Shown: positions 1 to 8,127 of the stretch, piece by piece
Position numbering within the stretch: position 1 is the first letter of the stretch
Layout of the letters: every line of letters starts with the position of its first letter
Assembly (NCBI GenBank): GCA_030614785.1
Contig: JAUWTJ010000040.1
Coordinates: 1 to 36,771 of the forward strand
DNA length: 36,771 nt
Source: Alphaproteobacteria bacterium
GTDB lineage: Bacteria > Pseudomonadota > Alphaproteobacteria > M2410
Direction: 5' to 3'
Notes under the pieces: generated by a model
Seen by the model: the letters and a program-made list of their open reading frames with translations, nothing else
Database searches by the model: none
What the model was told of the DNA's origin: nothing
Translations under genes and position numbers: made by a program

Positions 1-206
1 AACGCCATCAGCGCTGAAACAAAAACCAGCGACAAGGCAAACGGCCAACCGCCGACATAGACAAAGCCAAGGGAAACCGGAATCAAGATCACTGCCGAGA
101 TGAGCCGTGCTTTCAGCCCCTCATTCAGCGTCGGCTCGCGCGCGCTCTCATCCGAACCAACGCCGTCAATTGCCTCGCTTTGCTGATCATCGCTACCTGC
201 TGTCAC
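1..206 (-). CDS. cdsA: Phosphatidate cytidylyltransferase, N-terminal part (cut by window edge)
   Basis: CdsA makes CDP-diacylglycerol from phosphatidic acid and CTP in the inner membrane, the branch point of phospholipid synthesis. Only the first 68 codons are visible. After a hydrophilic leader of about 30 residues comes a typical CdsA opening: LKARLISAVILIPVSLGFVY, then a Gly-Gly-Trp turn and a second hydrophobic stretch. I chose the GTG at 206 because GAGGG lies four bases upstream and no in-frame ATG precedes the conserved part. It sits 43 bp downstream of the UppS-like gene, the usual position of cdsA after frr and uppS. The identification rests on the first membrane segment and on this context. 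Confidence 0.8.
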   Translation of the reverse strand, partial: MTAGSDDQQSEAIDGVGSDESAREPTLNEGLKARLISAVILIPVSLGFVYVGGWPFALSLVFVSALMA

Positions 207-249: not shown

Positions 250-984
250 CTATACGGCCCCGAACCGCCGTTCGCGCAATCGGAAGTCTGCGAGCAGATC
301 TGTCAGATCGTTGGCACTGAATGAATGCCAGGGCTGATCCAAAAAAGCAAATTCTGAATACGCCCCCATCCAGACGCCAACCTCGCCCACCCTTCGGCGG
401 CCACCGAAAAAAACAATCAGATCCGGCTCCCGAAGTGTTCCTGCCTGCAAACCCGCCCCTAATTCAGCTTCAAGCCGCACGGCGTCCCGTTTGTCAGAAA
501 TTCTTTTTTCAGGCTGCCTCTGAAAATCCCCGGCGATCCTTTTTACAGCGTCGACGATATCCAGCTTGCCCCGATAAGAGGCGATCATGTTTACGCAGAG
601 GCGGGCACCAACTTTCAGTGAAATTCTTCCTTCATCCATTACATTAAACGTAGAGAGTATATTTTTACTATCAACATGTTGCACCAAAAAATCAAAGTAT
701 GACTTGAGATTGGTAGTGCTACTAAATTCTTCGATGAGTGTGAGATTGGCAATATCATTCCGGTCCGCCGCTTCAAAAATCGACTGAACACGATCAGCGT
801 CATTGCCCGTGAGCAACCCGGGCCCACAGCCCTCGGCATCAAGCACAAACATGATGTGGATGTCAGCAGCGCACGATATGGATCTACCAGCCTCATCGAC
901 CAATTGACCTTCCAAAGCATCGCCTGCCTGTTGATCGACCTTTGCGATCCTGATCTCCTCTCGATCTCTATGGCCGATAGTCAT
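250..984 (-). CDS. Divergent UppS-like (cis-prenyltransferase family) protein, probably catalytically impaired
   Basis: This 244-residue protein occupies the normal uppS slot between frr and cdsA and aligns with UppS along much of its length, but key residues differ. Around residues 42-54, IHIMFVLDAEGCG stands where UppS has IAIIMDGNGRW: the Asp (49) remains, while Asn, Arg and Trp are replaced. Near residue 192, FFGGRRRVGE replaces RTSGEQRISN, so the first substrate-binding Arg and the Ser are lost and the second Arg (198) is kept. The end is family-like: AYSEF, a WHSFSANDL segment and a final RERRFGAV. The middle is about 20 residues short and AT-rich. AGGAAG precedes the ATG. I infer loss or change of isoprenyl transfer activity. 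It might act as a partner subunit, have a new role, or be decaying slowly. An intact uppS lies at 5594. Confidence 0.72.
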   Translation of the reverse strand: MTIGHRDREEIRIAKVDQQAGDALEGQLVDEAGRSISCAADIHIMFVLDAEGCGPGLLTGNDADRVQSIFEAADRNDIANLTLIEEFSSTTNLKSYFDFLVQHVDSKNILSTFNVMDEGRISLKVGARLCVNMIASYRGKLDIVDAVKRIAGDFQRQPEKRISDKRDAVRLEAELGAGLQAGTLREPDLIVFFGGRRRVGEVGVWMGAYSEFAFLDQPWHSFSANDLTDLLADFRLRERRFGAV

Positions 985-1031: not shown

Positions 1032-1601
1032 TCAGACCTGCATGATCTCACCTTCCTTGGTGGCAAGAGCTTCATCGATAGCCTTGATCATATCATCCGT
1101 CAGGCTCTGGATTTCCCCCGCCCACATCTTGTGTTCATCCTCACTCATGTGGCCGTCTTTTTCAGATTTTTTGAGCCCGTCCATGCCGTCGCGGCGGACA
1201 TTACGCACCGCAACTCTGGCCTGCTCGGAATACCGGTGCGCAACCTTTGCAAGCTCTGCGCGGCGCTCTTCGTTGAGTTCAGGGATTGGAACACGCACCA
1301 GCTGCCCGTCAGCGATTGGATTGAGACCCAGATTAGCATTACGGATAGCTTTTTCGACCGCCCCGACCATGCCCTTGTCCCAGACCTGAACTGTAAGCAT
1401 GCGCGATTCAGGCACACCGATTGTGCCCACCTGGGCCATTGGCATCTGCGTGCCATAGGCTTCAACGGTTACAGGTTCCAGAAGACTGGCGGAGGCGCGC
1501 CCTGTCCGCAAACCCGAAAATTCCGTCGAAAGTGCCGCGATTGCGCCCTTCATCCGCCTCTCAATGTCATCAAGGTCCGGTTCGTCATGTTTGTCTGCCA
1601 T
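1032..1601 (-). CDS. frr: Ribosome recycling factor
   Basis: RRF works with EF-G to split post-termination ribosomes in the cytoplasm. The 189 residues match the usual length (about 185). The sequence shows the conserved core: [20 protein letters not shown] near residues 31-50, a [16 protein letters not shown]-type segment, and the C-terminal domain with [19 protein letters not shown] lies seven bases before the ATG. It follows pyrH by 42 bp in the rpsB-tsf-pyrH-frr operon. Nothing unusual is seen. Confidence 0.97.
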
Positions 1602-4574: not shown

Positions 4575-5366
4575 TCACCGTGCCCCGACCGCCTTCTCTG
4601 CCCTTTTCAGGAACCGCCGTGCTCTTGAGTCCGAAACGCCGGTCTCTGCCGGATCAGGGACATCCTTCGGCATCACGAGGCCGGCTGAAATAACCAGTTT
4701 GGCGCCATCCTCAACGGACATTTCCAGGATATGCGCCTCGGCCCTGTCTACAAACAGCAAGAATCCAGAGGTCGGATTGGGTGTTGTCGGCACGAACACG
4801 CTGATCAGTTCCTTGCCGGCGGCCCGCCTGATTTCCCCTCCGATCCTGGAGGTCACAAAGCCAATCGCATAGATCCCCTTGCGCGGATATTCGAAAAGGC
4901 AAACCTCCTTGAAGGTATTGTCTCCCTGCGCCACCACAGTCTGCATGATCTGCTTGATGCCGGTATAGATCGTGCGAACGACGGGCATTCGTGAGACGAT
5001 ACGCTCGCCAAGCACCAGCAGGGCATTGCCAAACAGATTGGCGGCAAGGAACCCCAGAAACGTAATCCCGACCACAAGGATAATTACCCCGAGACCCGGG
5101 ATATTGTACGGCAGAAGCGCATCGGGATTAAGGCGGTCCGGGATCAGAGGCAGGATATTGCGGTCAATAAAGGCCACAAAAGACCACGCCAGATAGATCG
5201 TCGCACTGATCGGAACGCCGACGACGAGACCGGTGAGAAAGTATCTCTTGAGCCGCGCGCCAAGCCGCTTGTCAGCTCGCGGCTGTAAGGCACCGCCCGC
5301 ATCTGATGTCACATCAGTCTTCACATCCGCATCTTGATTGGCGGGTTCGGGTTTGTCTTCGCTCAT
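4575..5366 (-). CDS. DUF502 family membrane protein
   Basis: The protein has 263 residues. An acidic, Asp-rich leader of about 35 residues precedes two membrane segments, at about residues 40-68 (YFLTGLVVGVPISATIYLAW) and 93-118. A soluble C-terminal part follows, carrying the family pattern MPVVRTIYTGIKQIMQ, then FKEVCLFEYPRKGIYAIGF, then VFVPTTPNPTSGFLLFV. These match DUF502, a family of unknown function. The gene ends 207 bp upstream of rpsB on the same strand and starts 227 bp from uppS on the other strand. The ribosome binding site is weak (TTGAG just before the ATG). The family call is firm; no function can be given. Confidence 0.85.
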   Translation of the reverse strand: MSEDKPEPANQDADVKTDVTSDAGGALQPRADKRLGARLKRYFLTGLVVGVPISATIYLAWSFVAFIDRNILPLIPDRLNPDALLPYNIPGLGVIILVVGITFLGFLAANLFGNALLVLGERIVSRMPVVRTIYTGIKQIMQTVVAQGDNTFKEVCLFEYPRKGIYAIGFVTSRIGGEIRRAAGKELISVFVPTTPNPTSGFLLFVDRAEAHILEMSVEDGAKLVISAGLVMPKDVPDPAETGVSDSRARRFLKRAEKAVGAR

Positions 5367-5593: not shown

Positions 5594-6301
5594 ATGTCGG
5601 ACCGGAATCAAACCTGCGCAGCGCGCGCCATGCCTCGCCACATTGCCATCATCATGGACGGCAATGGCCGATGGGCCAAGGCACGCGGCCTGCCGCGGCT
5701 CGAAGGTCACCGGCGCGGGGTCGAGGTGGTGCGCGACATAGTCCGCGAGGCCAGCGATATGGGACTGGGCTATCTAACGCTGTACAGCTTTTCGACCGAG
5801 AACTGGCAAAGACCCAAATCCGAGGTCTTCGGCTTGATGCAGCTATTTCGGGTTTTCTTCCGCCGAAACCTCAAGGAGCTTAATGAGAAAAATGTCCGCA
5901 TTCGCGTGATCGGTCGCCGCGACAGGCTGGACGACGACATTCTCGACCTTATTGACAAAGCCGTCGAGACGACAAAATCCAACACGGGCCTGGGTCTTAC
6001 CCTCGCCTTCAATTATGGCGCCCGCGCCGAGATGGCCGACGCCGCAGCCTCAATCCTTGACGATGTCGCCGCAGGCACCCTCGCCCTCGACGACATAGAT
6101 GAACAGCTTATTGAAAACCGTCTTTATACGGGTGATATTCCTGACCCTGAAATCATCCTGCGCACCTCAGGCGAACAAAGGATTTCCAATTTTCTGCTGT
6201 GGCAATCCACAGAGGCCGAGTTCCATTTCACGGAAACCCTGTGGCCCGAGTTCTCACGCGCCGATCTGGAGAAGGTTATTCGCGATTACTGCGAGAACTA
6301 G
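5594..6301 (+). CDS. uppS: Undecaprenyl diphosphate synthase (canonical copy)
   Basis: UppS adds isoprenyl units from IPP to farnesyl diphosphate in cis, making the C55 carrier used for peptidoglycan and surface polysaccharide. All signature residues are present: IAIIMDGNGRWAKARGLPRL (catalytic Asp at residue 22), EGHRRGV, LTLYSFSTENW, FNYGARAEM, and RTSGEQRISNFLLWQ with both phosphate-binding Arg residues, followed by EAEFHF. Length is 235. Start is uncertain: ATG at 5594 and ATG at 5630 both lack a clear ribosome binding site. Unlike its relatives it is a lone gene, away from frr-cdsA, and its end is two bases from the convergent glmS. It is presumably the working enzyme, given the state of the copy at 250. 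Confidence 0.95.
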   Translation: MSDRNQTCAARAMPRHIAIIMDGNGRWAKARGLPRLEGHRRGVEVVRDIVREASDMGLGYLTLYSFSTENWQRPKSEVFGLMQLFRVFFRRNLKELNEKNVRIRVIGRRDRLDDDILDLIDKAVETTKSNTGLGLTLAFNYGARAEMADAAASILDDVAAGTLALDDIDEQLIENRLYTGDIPDPEIILRTSGEQRISNFLLWQSTEAEFHFTETLWPEFSRADLEKVIRDYCEN

Positions 6302-6303
6302 CC

Positions 6304-8127
6304 TCACTCGACCGTCACAGATTTTGCCAGGTTCCTCGGCTGATCCACATCCGTGCCCTTGAACACCGCCGTGTGATAGGCGATCAGCTGTACCGGCAGC
6401 GCGTAGAGGATCGGCGCGATAAAGCTGTCAATTTCAGGCATTTCAAACGAAACCGAAGTATCGGCGCCCGCCTGCCGGATGCCCCTGGCGTCGGAGACAA
6501 GGATCACCTTACCGCCGCGTGCGATGACCTCATGCATATTGGAAACCGTTTTATCGAAGATCGCATCGCACGGCGCGATGACCACGACGGGCATATTCTC
6601 GTCAATGAGTGCGATCGGCCCATGCTTCAACTCGCCCGCTGCGTAGCCTTCGGCATGAATATAGGAAATTTCCTTCAATTTCAGAGCCCCCTCAAGGGCG
6701 ATGGGGTAGTGAATACCGCGCCCGAGGAACAGCACATCCTGAGCCCTGGAAAGATCCTGTGCGATCCGCTTCAGCTGCTCGTCGCTGGACAAAACTTCAG
6801 CCATATGACGCGGCACTTCCTGCAACAACTTGACGAGCCGCTTTTCGCCATCGGGTTTCAGCCTGCCTCGTGCCGAGGCCGTGGCAATGGCCAGCAGTGC
6901 CAGCACAGTTAACTGACAGGTAAAGGCCTTGGTCGAGGCGACGCCGATCTCCGGCCCCGCGTAGGTCGGAACAATCACATCGCTTTCTCGCGCAATAGTC
7001 GATTCCGCCACATTGACGATTGAGAGCACATGCTGACCCTCGGCCTTGCAGTAACGCAGAGCCGCCAGCGTGTCGGCCGTCTCCCCCGACTGAGAAATCA
7101 TAATGGCCAGGCCACCTTTTGGCAGCGCCGCCTCTCGGTAACGAAACTCCGACGCGATATCGACCTCAACCGGCACCCGCGCAATTTGCTCAAACCAGTA
7201 TTTGGCGACGATCCCGGCATAGGATGCCGTCCCGCAGGCCACAATGGTAATCTTTGGAACATCAGCCAGATTAAAAGGCAGATCCGGCAAGGCAATCAGG
7301 GCTTTTGCCGCATCCACGTAACGTCCCAGCGTATGACCAATCACATCAGGCTGTTCATAGATCTCCTTGGCCATAAAATGGCGGTGGTTACCCTTGTCAA
7401 CCAGCGCGGCACTTACAGAAGTGGTCGAAACAGGACGCTCAACCTCATTGCCAGTCATGTCATAGATCTCGACACTGGTTCGTGACAGGACGGCCCAGTC
7501 ACCGTCTTCAATGTAGATGACCTTGTTGGTAATCGGGGCAAGCGAGAAAGCGTCGGAGCCAATGTAATGTTCGCCGTCACCGATCCCGATCGCAAGCGGC
7601 GAGCCCTGGCGCGCAGCGATAACAAGATCATCCTCGCCCTCAAACACCATGGCCACGGCATAGGCGCCCTCAAGCCGCCCCAGCGCGGCAAATGCGGCCT
7701 CTTTTGGCGTCTTGCCCTGGCCAAGATGAAAACTCACCAGCTGGGCAATTACTTCGGTATCCGTTTCGGTATCAAACCCCTTGCCGGCGTCCCTGAGTTC
7801 GTCACGAAGGGTCATGAAATTTTCGATGATACCATTGTGGACAATCGCCACCCCGGTGGCCACATGCGGATGAGCGTTTCCCTCCGTGGGCGCACCATGC
7901 GTCGCCCACCGCGTGTGTCCAATACCAATCGTGCCCTCAAGCGGATTATTCGCCAGAACCTCCACGAGATTGGAAAGCTTGCCCTCGGCCCGGCGCCGAC
8001 AAACTTTGCCATCAACAAGCGTGGTAACACCGGCGGAATCATATCCGCGATATTCAAGACGCTTCAGACCCTCAATCATGAAGTCCGTCGCATCCCGGTT
8101 ACCAACAATTGCTACAATTCCACACAT
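6304..8127 (-). CDS. glmS: Glutamine-fructose-6-phosphate aminotransferase (isomerising)
   Basis: GlmS makes glucosamine-6-phosphate from fructose-6-phosphate and glutamine, feeding UDP-GlcNAc for peptidoglycan and LPS. The 607 residues have the usual layout. The Ntn amidotransferase domain starts MCGIVAIVG with nucleophile Cys2, and HTRWATHG and HNGIIEN follow. Two SIS domains come next (VACGTASYAG, SQSGETADTLAALR, then STKAFTCQL). The tail DQPRNLAKSVTVE is the conserved C-terminus. GAGG lies six bases before the ATG. It is the last gene of galE-epimerase-glmS, 27 bp after the epimerase, so amino-sugar supply is linked to this polysaccharide block. I see no glmS ribozyme. Confidence 0.97.
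   Translation of the reverse strand: MCGIVAIVGNRDATDFMIEGLKRLEYRGYDSAGVTTLVDGKVCRRRAEGKLSNLVEVLANNPLEGTIGIGHTRWATHGAPTEGNAHPHVATGVAIVHNGIIENFMTLRDELRDAGKGFDTETDTEVIAQLVSFHLGQGKTPKEAAFAALGRLEGAYAVAMVFEGEDDLVIAARQGSPLAIGIGDGEHYIGSDAFSLAPITNKVIYIEDGDWAVLSRTSVEIYDMTGNEVERPVSTTSVSAALVDKGNHRHFMAKEIYEQPDVIGHTLGRYVDAAKALIALPDLPFNLADVPKITIVACGTASYAGIVAKYWFEQIARVPVEVDIASEFRYREAALPKGGLAIMISQSGETADTLAALRYCKAEGQHVLSIVNVAESTIARESDVIVPTYAGPEIGVASTKAFTCQLTVLALLAIATASARGRLKPDGEKRLVKLLQEVPRHMAEVLSSDEQLKRIAQDLSRAQDVLFLGRGIHYPIALEGALKLKEISYIHAEGYAAGELKHGPIALIDENMPVVVIAPCDAIFDKTVSNMHEVIARGGKVILVSDARGIRQAGADTSVSFEMPEIDSFIAPILYALPVQLIAYHTAVFKGTDVDQPRNLAKSVTVE

Follow-up and report, generated by a model that had tools for sequence, protein, structure and literature searches.

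A putative UppS-like pseudoenzyme in the native uppS slot and an RxG-less UppS: a candidate heteromeric undecaprenyl pyrophosphate synthase in Alphaproteobacteria

Results

Two uppS-related genes in one alphaproteobacterial genome

The window, the whole stretch of 36,771 nucleotides analysed here, belongs to an alphaproteobacterial genome of 3.86 Mb that is 99.1% complete (G000). This genome contains exactly two genes with a match to the Pfam family PF01255, at 250-984 and 5594-6301 of the window. The host order is represented in the collection by four genomes, G000, G001, G002 and G003. G001 (SBHG01000170, isolate M3011) and G003 (SBGZ01000010, isolate M2410) are both Alphaproteobacteria bacterium MAGs and belong to a second genus. 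The features of the window are as follows.

1..206, minus strand: cdsA, truncated by the contig end; downstream neighbour of 250-984, in the same place in G001 and G003
250..984, minus strand: candidate partner subunit, a UppS-like putative pseudoenzyme of 244 aa (PF01255 match, profile alignment, AF2 model, orthologues in G001 and G003)
259..276, minus strand: RERRFG, the C-terminal RxG motif, kept in 3/3 partner orthologues
352..360, minus strand: Tyr209-Ser210-Glu211, at the positions of Y211 and E213 of E. coli UppS; Tyr and Glu kept in 3/3 partners
385..411, minus strand: FFGGRRRVG, replacing the IPP-site motif RTSGEQRIS; R194, E198 and S202 lost
823..840, minus strand: DAEGCG, replacing DGNGRW; Asp kept, R30 lost
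1032..1601, minus strand: frr, upstream neighbour of 250-984, marking the native uppS slot
5594..6301, plus strand: candidate catalytic subunit, a UppS with complete cis motifs, without the C-terminal RxG and with Glu at the Y211 position (PF01255 match 1-212/219)
5657..5674, plus strand: DGNGRW motif of the candidate catalytic subunit (from the sequence)
6161..6187, plus strand: RTSGEQRIS motif of the candidate catalytic subunit (from the alignment)
6304..8127, minus strand: glmS, convergent neighbour of the catalytic uppS; arrangement repeated in G001

A DUF502 protein (PF04367) is encoded at 4575-5366 on the minus strand, adjoining the catalytic uppS.

The degenerate homologue between frr and cdsA

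UppS, which makes the carrier lipid of the cell wall, is normally essential. A recognisable UppS is encoded at 27 of the alphaproteobacterial reference loci, and in each of these uppS is located beside frr and is followed by cdsA, which in one of them (L005) is beyond the contig end. Since these loci share the order frr-uppS-cdsA, the locus of 250-984 is considered to be the native uppS slot.

The open reading frame in this slot starts with ATG, contains no internal stop codon and encodes 244 aa. The protein scores 60 bits against PF01255 (cut-off 27), and the match covers model positions 113-219 only. Profile comparison with hhalign aligned residues 39-244 to UppS with E 2e-17, and the N-terminal 176 residues alone matched the UppS profile with E 4e-4. 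The score above the curated cut-off and the match to the cis-prenyltransferase (cis-PT) fold place the protein in the family. The preliminary description of this DNA had proposed a degenerate UppS in the frr-cdsA slot with an open frame of 244 codons, and the frame, the replacements DAEGCG and FFGGRRRVG, the loss of the H43 region and the intact RERRFG were all confirmed.

Residues were assigned in E. coli numbering by alignment to the 27 reference UppS, and in the N-terminal half from the profile alignment. The window partner has no equivalents of R30, R39, N74, R77, R194, E198, S202 and Q208, while it keeps Asp26 (as DAEG), Tyr211, Glu213, Arg239, Arg241 and Arg242. Due to the eight losses, it should not bind both pyrophosphates. 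Four residues were used to define a catalytic UppS (R30, R194, R200 and S202). R194 and S202 are lost in all three partners, R200 is kept in the window partner only, and R30 is lost in the window partner. The middle of the gene is AT-rich, with a GC content of 0.32-0.35 at codons 81-120.

The window partner was modelled with AF2 (pTM 0.63, pLDDT 60) from a nine-row alignment that includes UppS sequences, and the model thus is not independent of UppS. UppS structures were matched at E 7e-8 with Foldseek and at Z of up to 11.6 with VIA; the match to the human NgBR chain 7pax_B had Z 9.8 and rmsd 6.3. For the G001 partner, AF2 gave a low-confidence model, and the fold search with it gave no informative match. 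The PDB sequence search with E up to 1 returned UppS-type chains and no NUS1, and by sequence the partner is thus not an orthologue of NgBR/Nus1.

The UppS beside glmS lacks the C-terminal RxG

The protein encoded at 5594-6301 shows 266 bits against PF01255, and carries both DGNGRW and RTSGExRIS. The match ends at model position 212 of 219, and the C-terminal RxG, present in 27/27 reference alphaproteobacterial UppS, is absent. The preliminary description had reported an intact, canonical uppS about 5 kb away from the degenerate gene. This holds for the cis motifs, which are complete, but not for the C-terminal tail.

The UppS of G001 (locus L038, 9782-10555, minus strand) also lacks the RxG, and its PF01255 match ends at 213/219. 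Among 80 follow-up genomes of the class, picked for several hits or weak scores, the match extends to 217-219 in all uninterrupted UppS except that of G001, contig-end genes aside. Loss of the RxG by a frameshift or an assembly error was ruled out, as no frame at the end of either gene holds an RxG, and as the tail is missing in both genomes. The catalytic subunits of the window and G001 form one clade with support 99/99; the tree including the partners has very long branches, and only this grouping was used from it.

Complementary residue losses

Tyr211, Arg239, Arg241, Arg242, Arg194, Glu198 and Ser202 are invariant in the 27 reference UppS, as are R30 and Q208. Y211, R239, R241 and R242 are lost in both catalytic subunits (window and G001) and kept in all three partners. 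Conversely, both catalytic subunits retain R30, R194, E198, S202 and Q208, which no partner has; the status of R30 in the partners of the second genus depends on an uncertain alignment. Both G000 and G001 thus encode a catalytic UppS without the RxG and a noncatalytic homologue with it.

The Tyr211 position is occupied by Glu in the window catalytic enzyme and by Asp in that of G001. Tyr211 and Glu213, besides the RxG, may be residues that act across the dimer interface. Glu213, kept in 27/27 references and 3/3 partners, is replaced by His in the G001 catalytic UppS, and human DHDDS lost both Tyr211 and Glu213.

Orthologues, synteny and selection

The orthologue check suggested in the preliminary description gave a positive answer: both MAGs of the second genus have a partner gene in the frr-cdsA slot, with an open frame of exactly 203 codons and an RxG. 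In the gapless C-terminal block, to which residue statements refer because the N-terminal half of these proteins is not reliably aligned, both lost R194, E198, R200 and S202 and keep Tyr211, Glu213, Arg239, Arg241, Arg242 and the RxG tail. The N-terminal half, which has drifted most, is hardly alignable between the two genera.

The comparison between the G001 and G003 partners showed dS 1.35, dN 0.52 and dN/dS 0.39. For the last 78 codons, dN/dS is 0.31 and the identity is 68%. These ratios are rough, as dS is near saturation. The neighbouring genes frr, pyrH, cdsA and dxr show dN/dS of 0.02-0.08. In a neutral simulation with one substitution per site, the frame acquired 8.4 stop codons on average and none of 5000 runs was stop-free. 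The partner dN/dS, for which the preliminary description had taken values near 1 as a sign of decay, and the stop simulation indicate constraint on the partner, albeit much weaker than on the genes around it.

In G001, the RxG-less catalytic uppS adjoins glmS, as in the window. The complete pair is observed in two genomes, the window genome and G001; G003 and G002 have assembly gaps. The catalytic gene was not found in G003, whose assembly has no true glmS. In G002, neither gene was found; glmS ends at the contig end, frr was not found, and cdsA is a contig-end fragment of 47 residues. Real absence was not concluded for either genome, as glmS is missing or cut by the contig end, and the missing catalytic gene may reflect an assembly gap rather than absence.

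Discussion

A candidate two-subunit undecaprenyl pyrophosphate synthase

The RxG arginine is contributed by the counter-subunit in homodimeric cis-PTs and by NgBR in the human complex. In the decaprenyl enzyme of Mycobacterium tuberculosis (DPPS), the RxG arginine from the counter-subunit contacts Mg-bound waters and the catalytic Asp (PMC6450523). The inactive human subunit, NgBR, extends its RxG tail across the interface to the active site of DHDDS, where backbone nitrogens of the tail bind the S2 phosphate. On its own, DHDDS shows ~400-fold lower activity than the complex (PMC7573591).

It is likely, with a probability of roughly 0.8, that the products of 250-984 and 5594-6301 constitute a heteromeric undecaprenyl pyrophosphate synthase resembling DHDDS-NgBR, in which the partner completes the active site in trans. 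This reading draws on sequence comparison: homology, complementary motif loss, synteny, orthologues and purifying constraint. The product of 5594-6301 would bind the allylic substrate, IPP and Mg2+ through the residues of its own DGNGRW, FSTENW-R and RTSGEQRIS motifs. It has no RxG tail, the element by which one protomer normally closes the active site of the other. The product of 250-984 would be a catalytically dead cis-PT fold that replaces the second protomer. Its C-terminal RERRFG(A/G)V tail is predicted to cross the interface, where its Arg and Gly would contact the pyrophosphates of the substrates as well as the Asp26-Mg2+ centre. We infer that the two proteins form a physical heteromer, that activity depends on the partner, and that the product has the chain length expected of this enzyme.

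A partner subunit of the NgBR/Nus1 type had been suggested in the preliminary description. It is the best-supported reading of the sequences, and is stronger than could be known at that time because the RxG, the very element that a partner would contribute, is missing from the second UppS. Counting against the pair, ~5 kb separate the two genes, which lie on opposite strands.

Alternative explanations

Loss of the RxG alone does not prove dependence on a partner, since the archaeal cis-PT MM_0014, which has no RxG, is an active enzyme and formed a homodimer in the crystal (PMC8131916). On this precedent, the catalytic UppS might be a self-sufficient RxG-less homodimer and 250-984 a regulator or another non-catalytic protein, for example one that couples carrier-lipid synthesis to CdsA or to cell-wall demand. 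The weaker constraint on the partner than on its neighbours (dN/dS 0.39 vs 0.02-0.08) would fit such a role. We consider it unlikely, however, because the partner conserves the RxG tail and the Tyr position, exactly what both catalytic subunits lost, and a mere regulator has no evident reason to keep them.

It is very improbable that the original uppS is decaying at 250-984 as a pseudogene, superseded by the copy at 5594. Fast evolution, the loss of most catalytic residues and the AT-rich middle are what decay would produce, and the preliminary description had left this possibility standing. It is disfavoured by open frames in the same slot in three species of two genera (203 aa in two of them), by the dN/dS of 0.39 with 68% C-terminal identity, and by the stop simulation; simple replacement also does not predict that the 5594 copy is without an RxG tail.

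An enzyme with a changed activity, such as short-chain or unusual prenyl transfer, has the slightest chance of all, as the equivalents of R30, R39, N74, R77, R194 and S202, and with them both pyrophosphate sites, are lost, although the window protein keeps the catalytic Asp (in DAEG) and Glu211.

Comparison with known prenyltransferases and origin of the pair

The fold and the cis motifs of the 5594 protein are shared with the bacterial homodimeric UppS of E. coli and Staphylococcus aureus and with M. tuberculosis DPPS. In these enzymes the active site and the RxG are on one chain, whereas in the present pair they are on two proteins. The combination of an RxG-less catalytic cis-PT with a dead RxG-bearing homologue is likewise seen in human DHDDS-NgBR, yeast Rer2/Srt1-Nus1 and plant CPT-CPTBP/CPTL. 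Known noncatalytic subunits resemble cis-PTs at the C terminus only (PMC7839719), like the window partner, whose Pfam match is confined to the C-terminal part.

The resemblance to the DHDDS-type systems extends to the Tyr211 position, where the catalytic subunit of either system no longer has the Tyr. At the site of WQIAYAELYF in E. coli UppS, DHDDS (PDB 6z1n_A) reads WQTSHSCLVF, with neither the Tyr nor the Glu. The NgBR chain has WHIRLTEI and ends with CEQRLGK, keeping the Glu and the RxG. At the Glu213 position, the partner thus has the Glu and the catalytic subunit does not, in the human enzyme as in the G001 pair. Unlike DHDDS, the present catalytic subunit is bacterial and has no DHDDS-type C-terminal extension. 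Unlike NgBR/Nus1, the present partner is encoded at the native uppS locus of a bacterium, and the PDB sequences that it matches are of the UppS type.

MM_0618 and MM_1083 of Methanosarcina mazei are described as a two-component cis-PT held responsible for a glycosyl carrier lipid (cited in PMC8131916). They are also prokaryotic, but archaeal, and are a possible parallel to the present pair. The large and small subunits of GPPS form heteromeric trans-prenyltransferases, in which a catalytic subunit is joined by a homologue with less or no activity (PMC7839719). The present pair shares this logic of a catalytic and a homologous subunit. GPPS-type trans-prenyltransferases are unrelated in fold and chemistry to cis-PTs.

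The partner probably descends from the resident uppS of the bacterium, because it occupies the native uppS slot. The catalytic copy on the glmS side would have arisen by duplication or transfer before the split of the two genera. An origin independent of the eukaryotic and archaeal two-subunit enzymes is likely. Cis-PTs have been reviewed as homodimeric in bacteria and plants and heteromeric in eukaryotes (PMC7839719), and no bacterial precedent for a split of UppS into a catalytic and a dead subunit was found in the literature searched. As judged from the sequences, there is a reasonable chance, somewhat better than even, that the pair is the first bacterial heteromeric cis-PT, with an NgBR-like pseudoenzyme made from the resident uppS, and that it arrived independently at the same partition of active-site residues.

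If true, the pair would show how an essential homodimeric enzyme becomes a pair of a catalytic subunit and a pseudoenzyme, and it could serve as a compact bacterial model of DHDDS-NgBR in which to study the contribution of the dead subunit. The residue partition points to Tyr211 and Glu213 besides the RxG, and their possible role across the interface is directly testable.

Distribution among genomes

The class (385 genomes) and the phylum (397 genomes at least 90% complete) were surveyed, and genomes with several matches or weak scores were followed up. No second complementary pair, i.e., an RxG-less UppS with an RxG-bearing degenerate homologue, was found among the matches listed in either survey. 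Many genomes have two full-length UppS among these matches, and most second paralogues are full-length. Other partial PF01255 matches looked like contig ends or split frames. A scan of the contigs of the collection with a single partner protein as the query gave no matches, and a scan with patterns from the alignment of the three partners returned only the G001 and G003 MAGs. Within the alphaproteobacterial and phylum genomes sampled, the arrangement looks confined to the host order.

Three minor observations were made on PF01255 genes elsewhere. In two alphaproteobacterial genomes of one genus (G450 and G703; family f174, genus g281; 1.5-1.6 Mb, 100% complete), a PF01255 gene was not found. 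In three genomes of one family of the same phylum (f199; G438, G452 and G473), a second, near-full-length UppS paralogue ends at model positions 215-216. A full-length UppS stands beside it, and the C-terminal tail of the second copy may be altered. Several viral contigs from IMG/VR (L053-L056) carry full-length UppS genes, most of which have RxG-like tails such as RKRNYG and RKRNFG.
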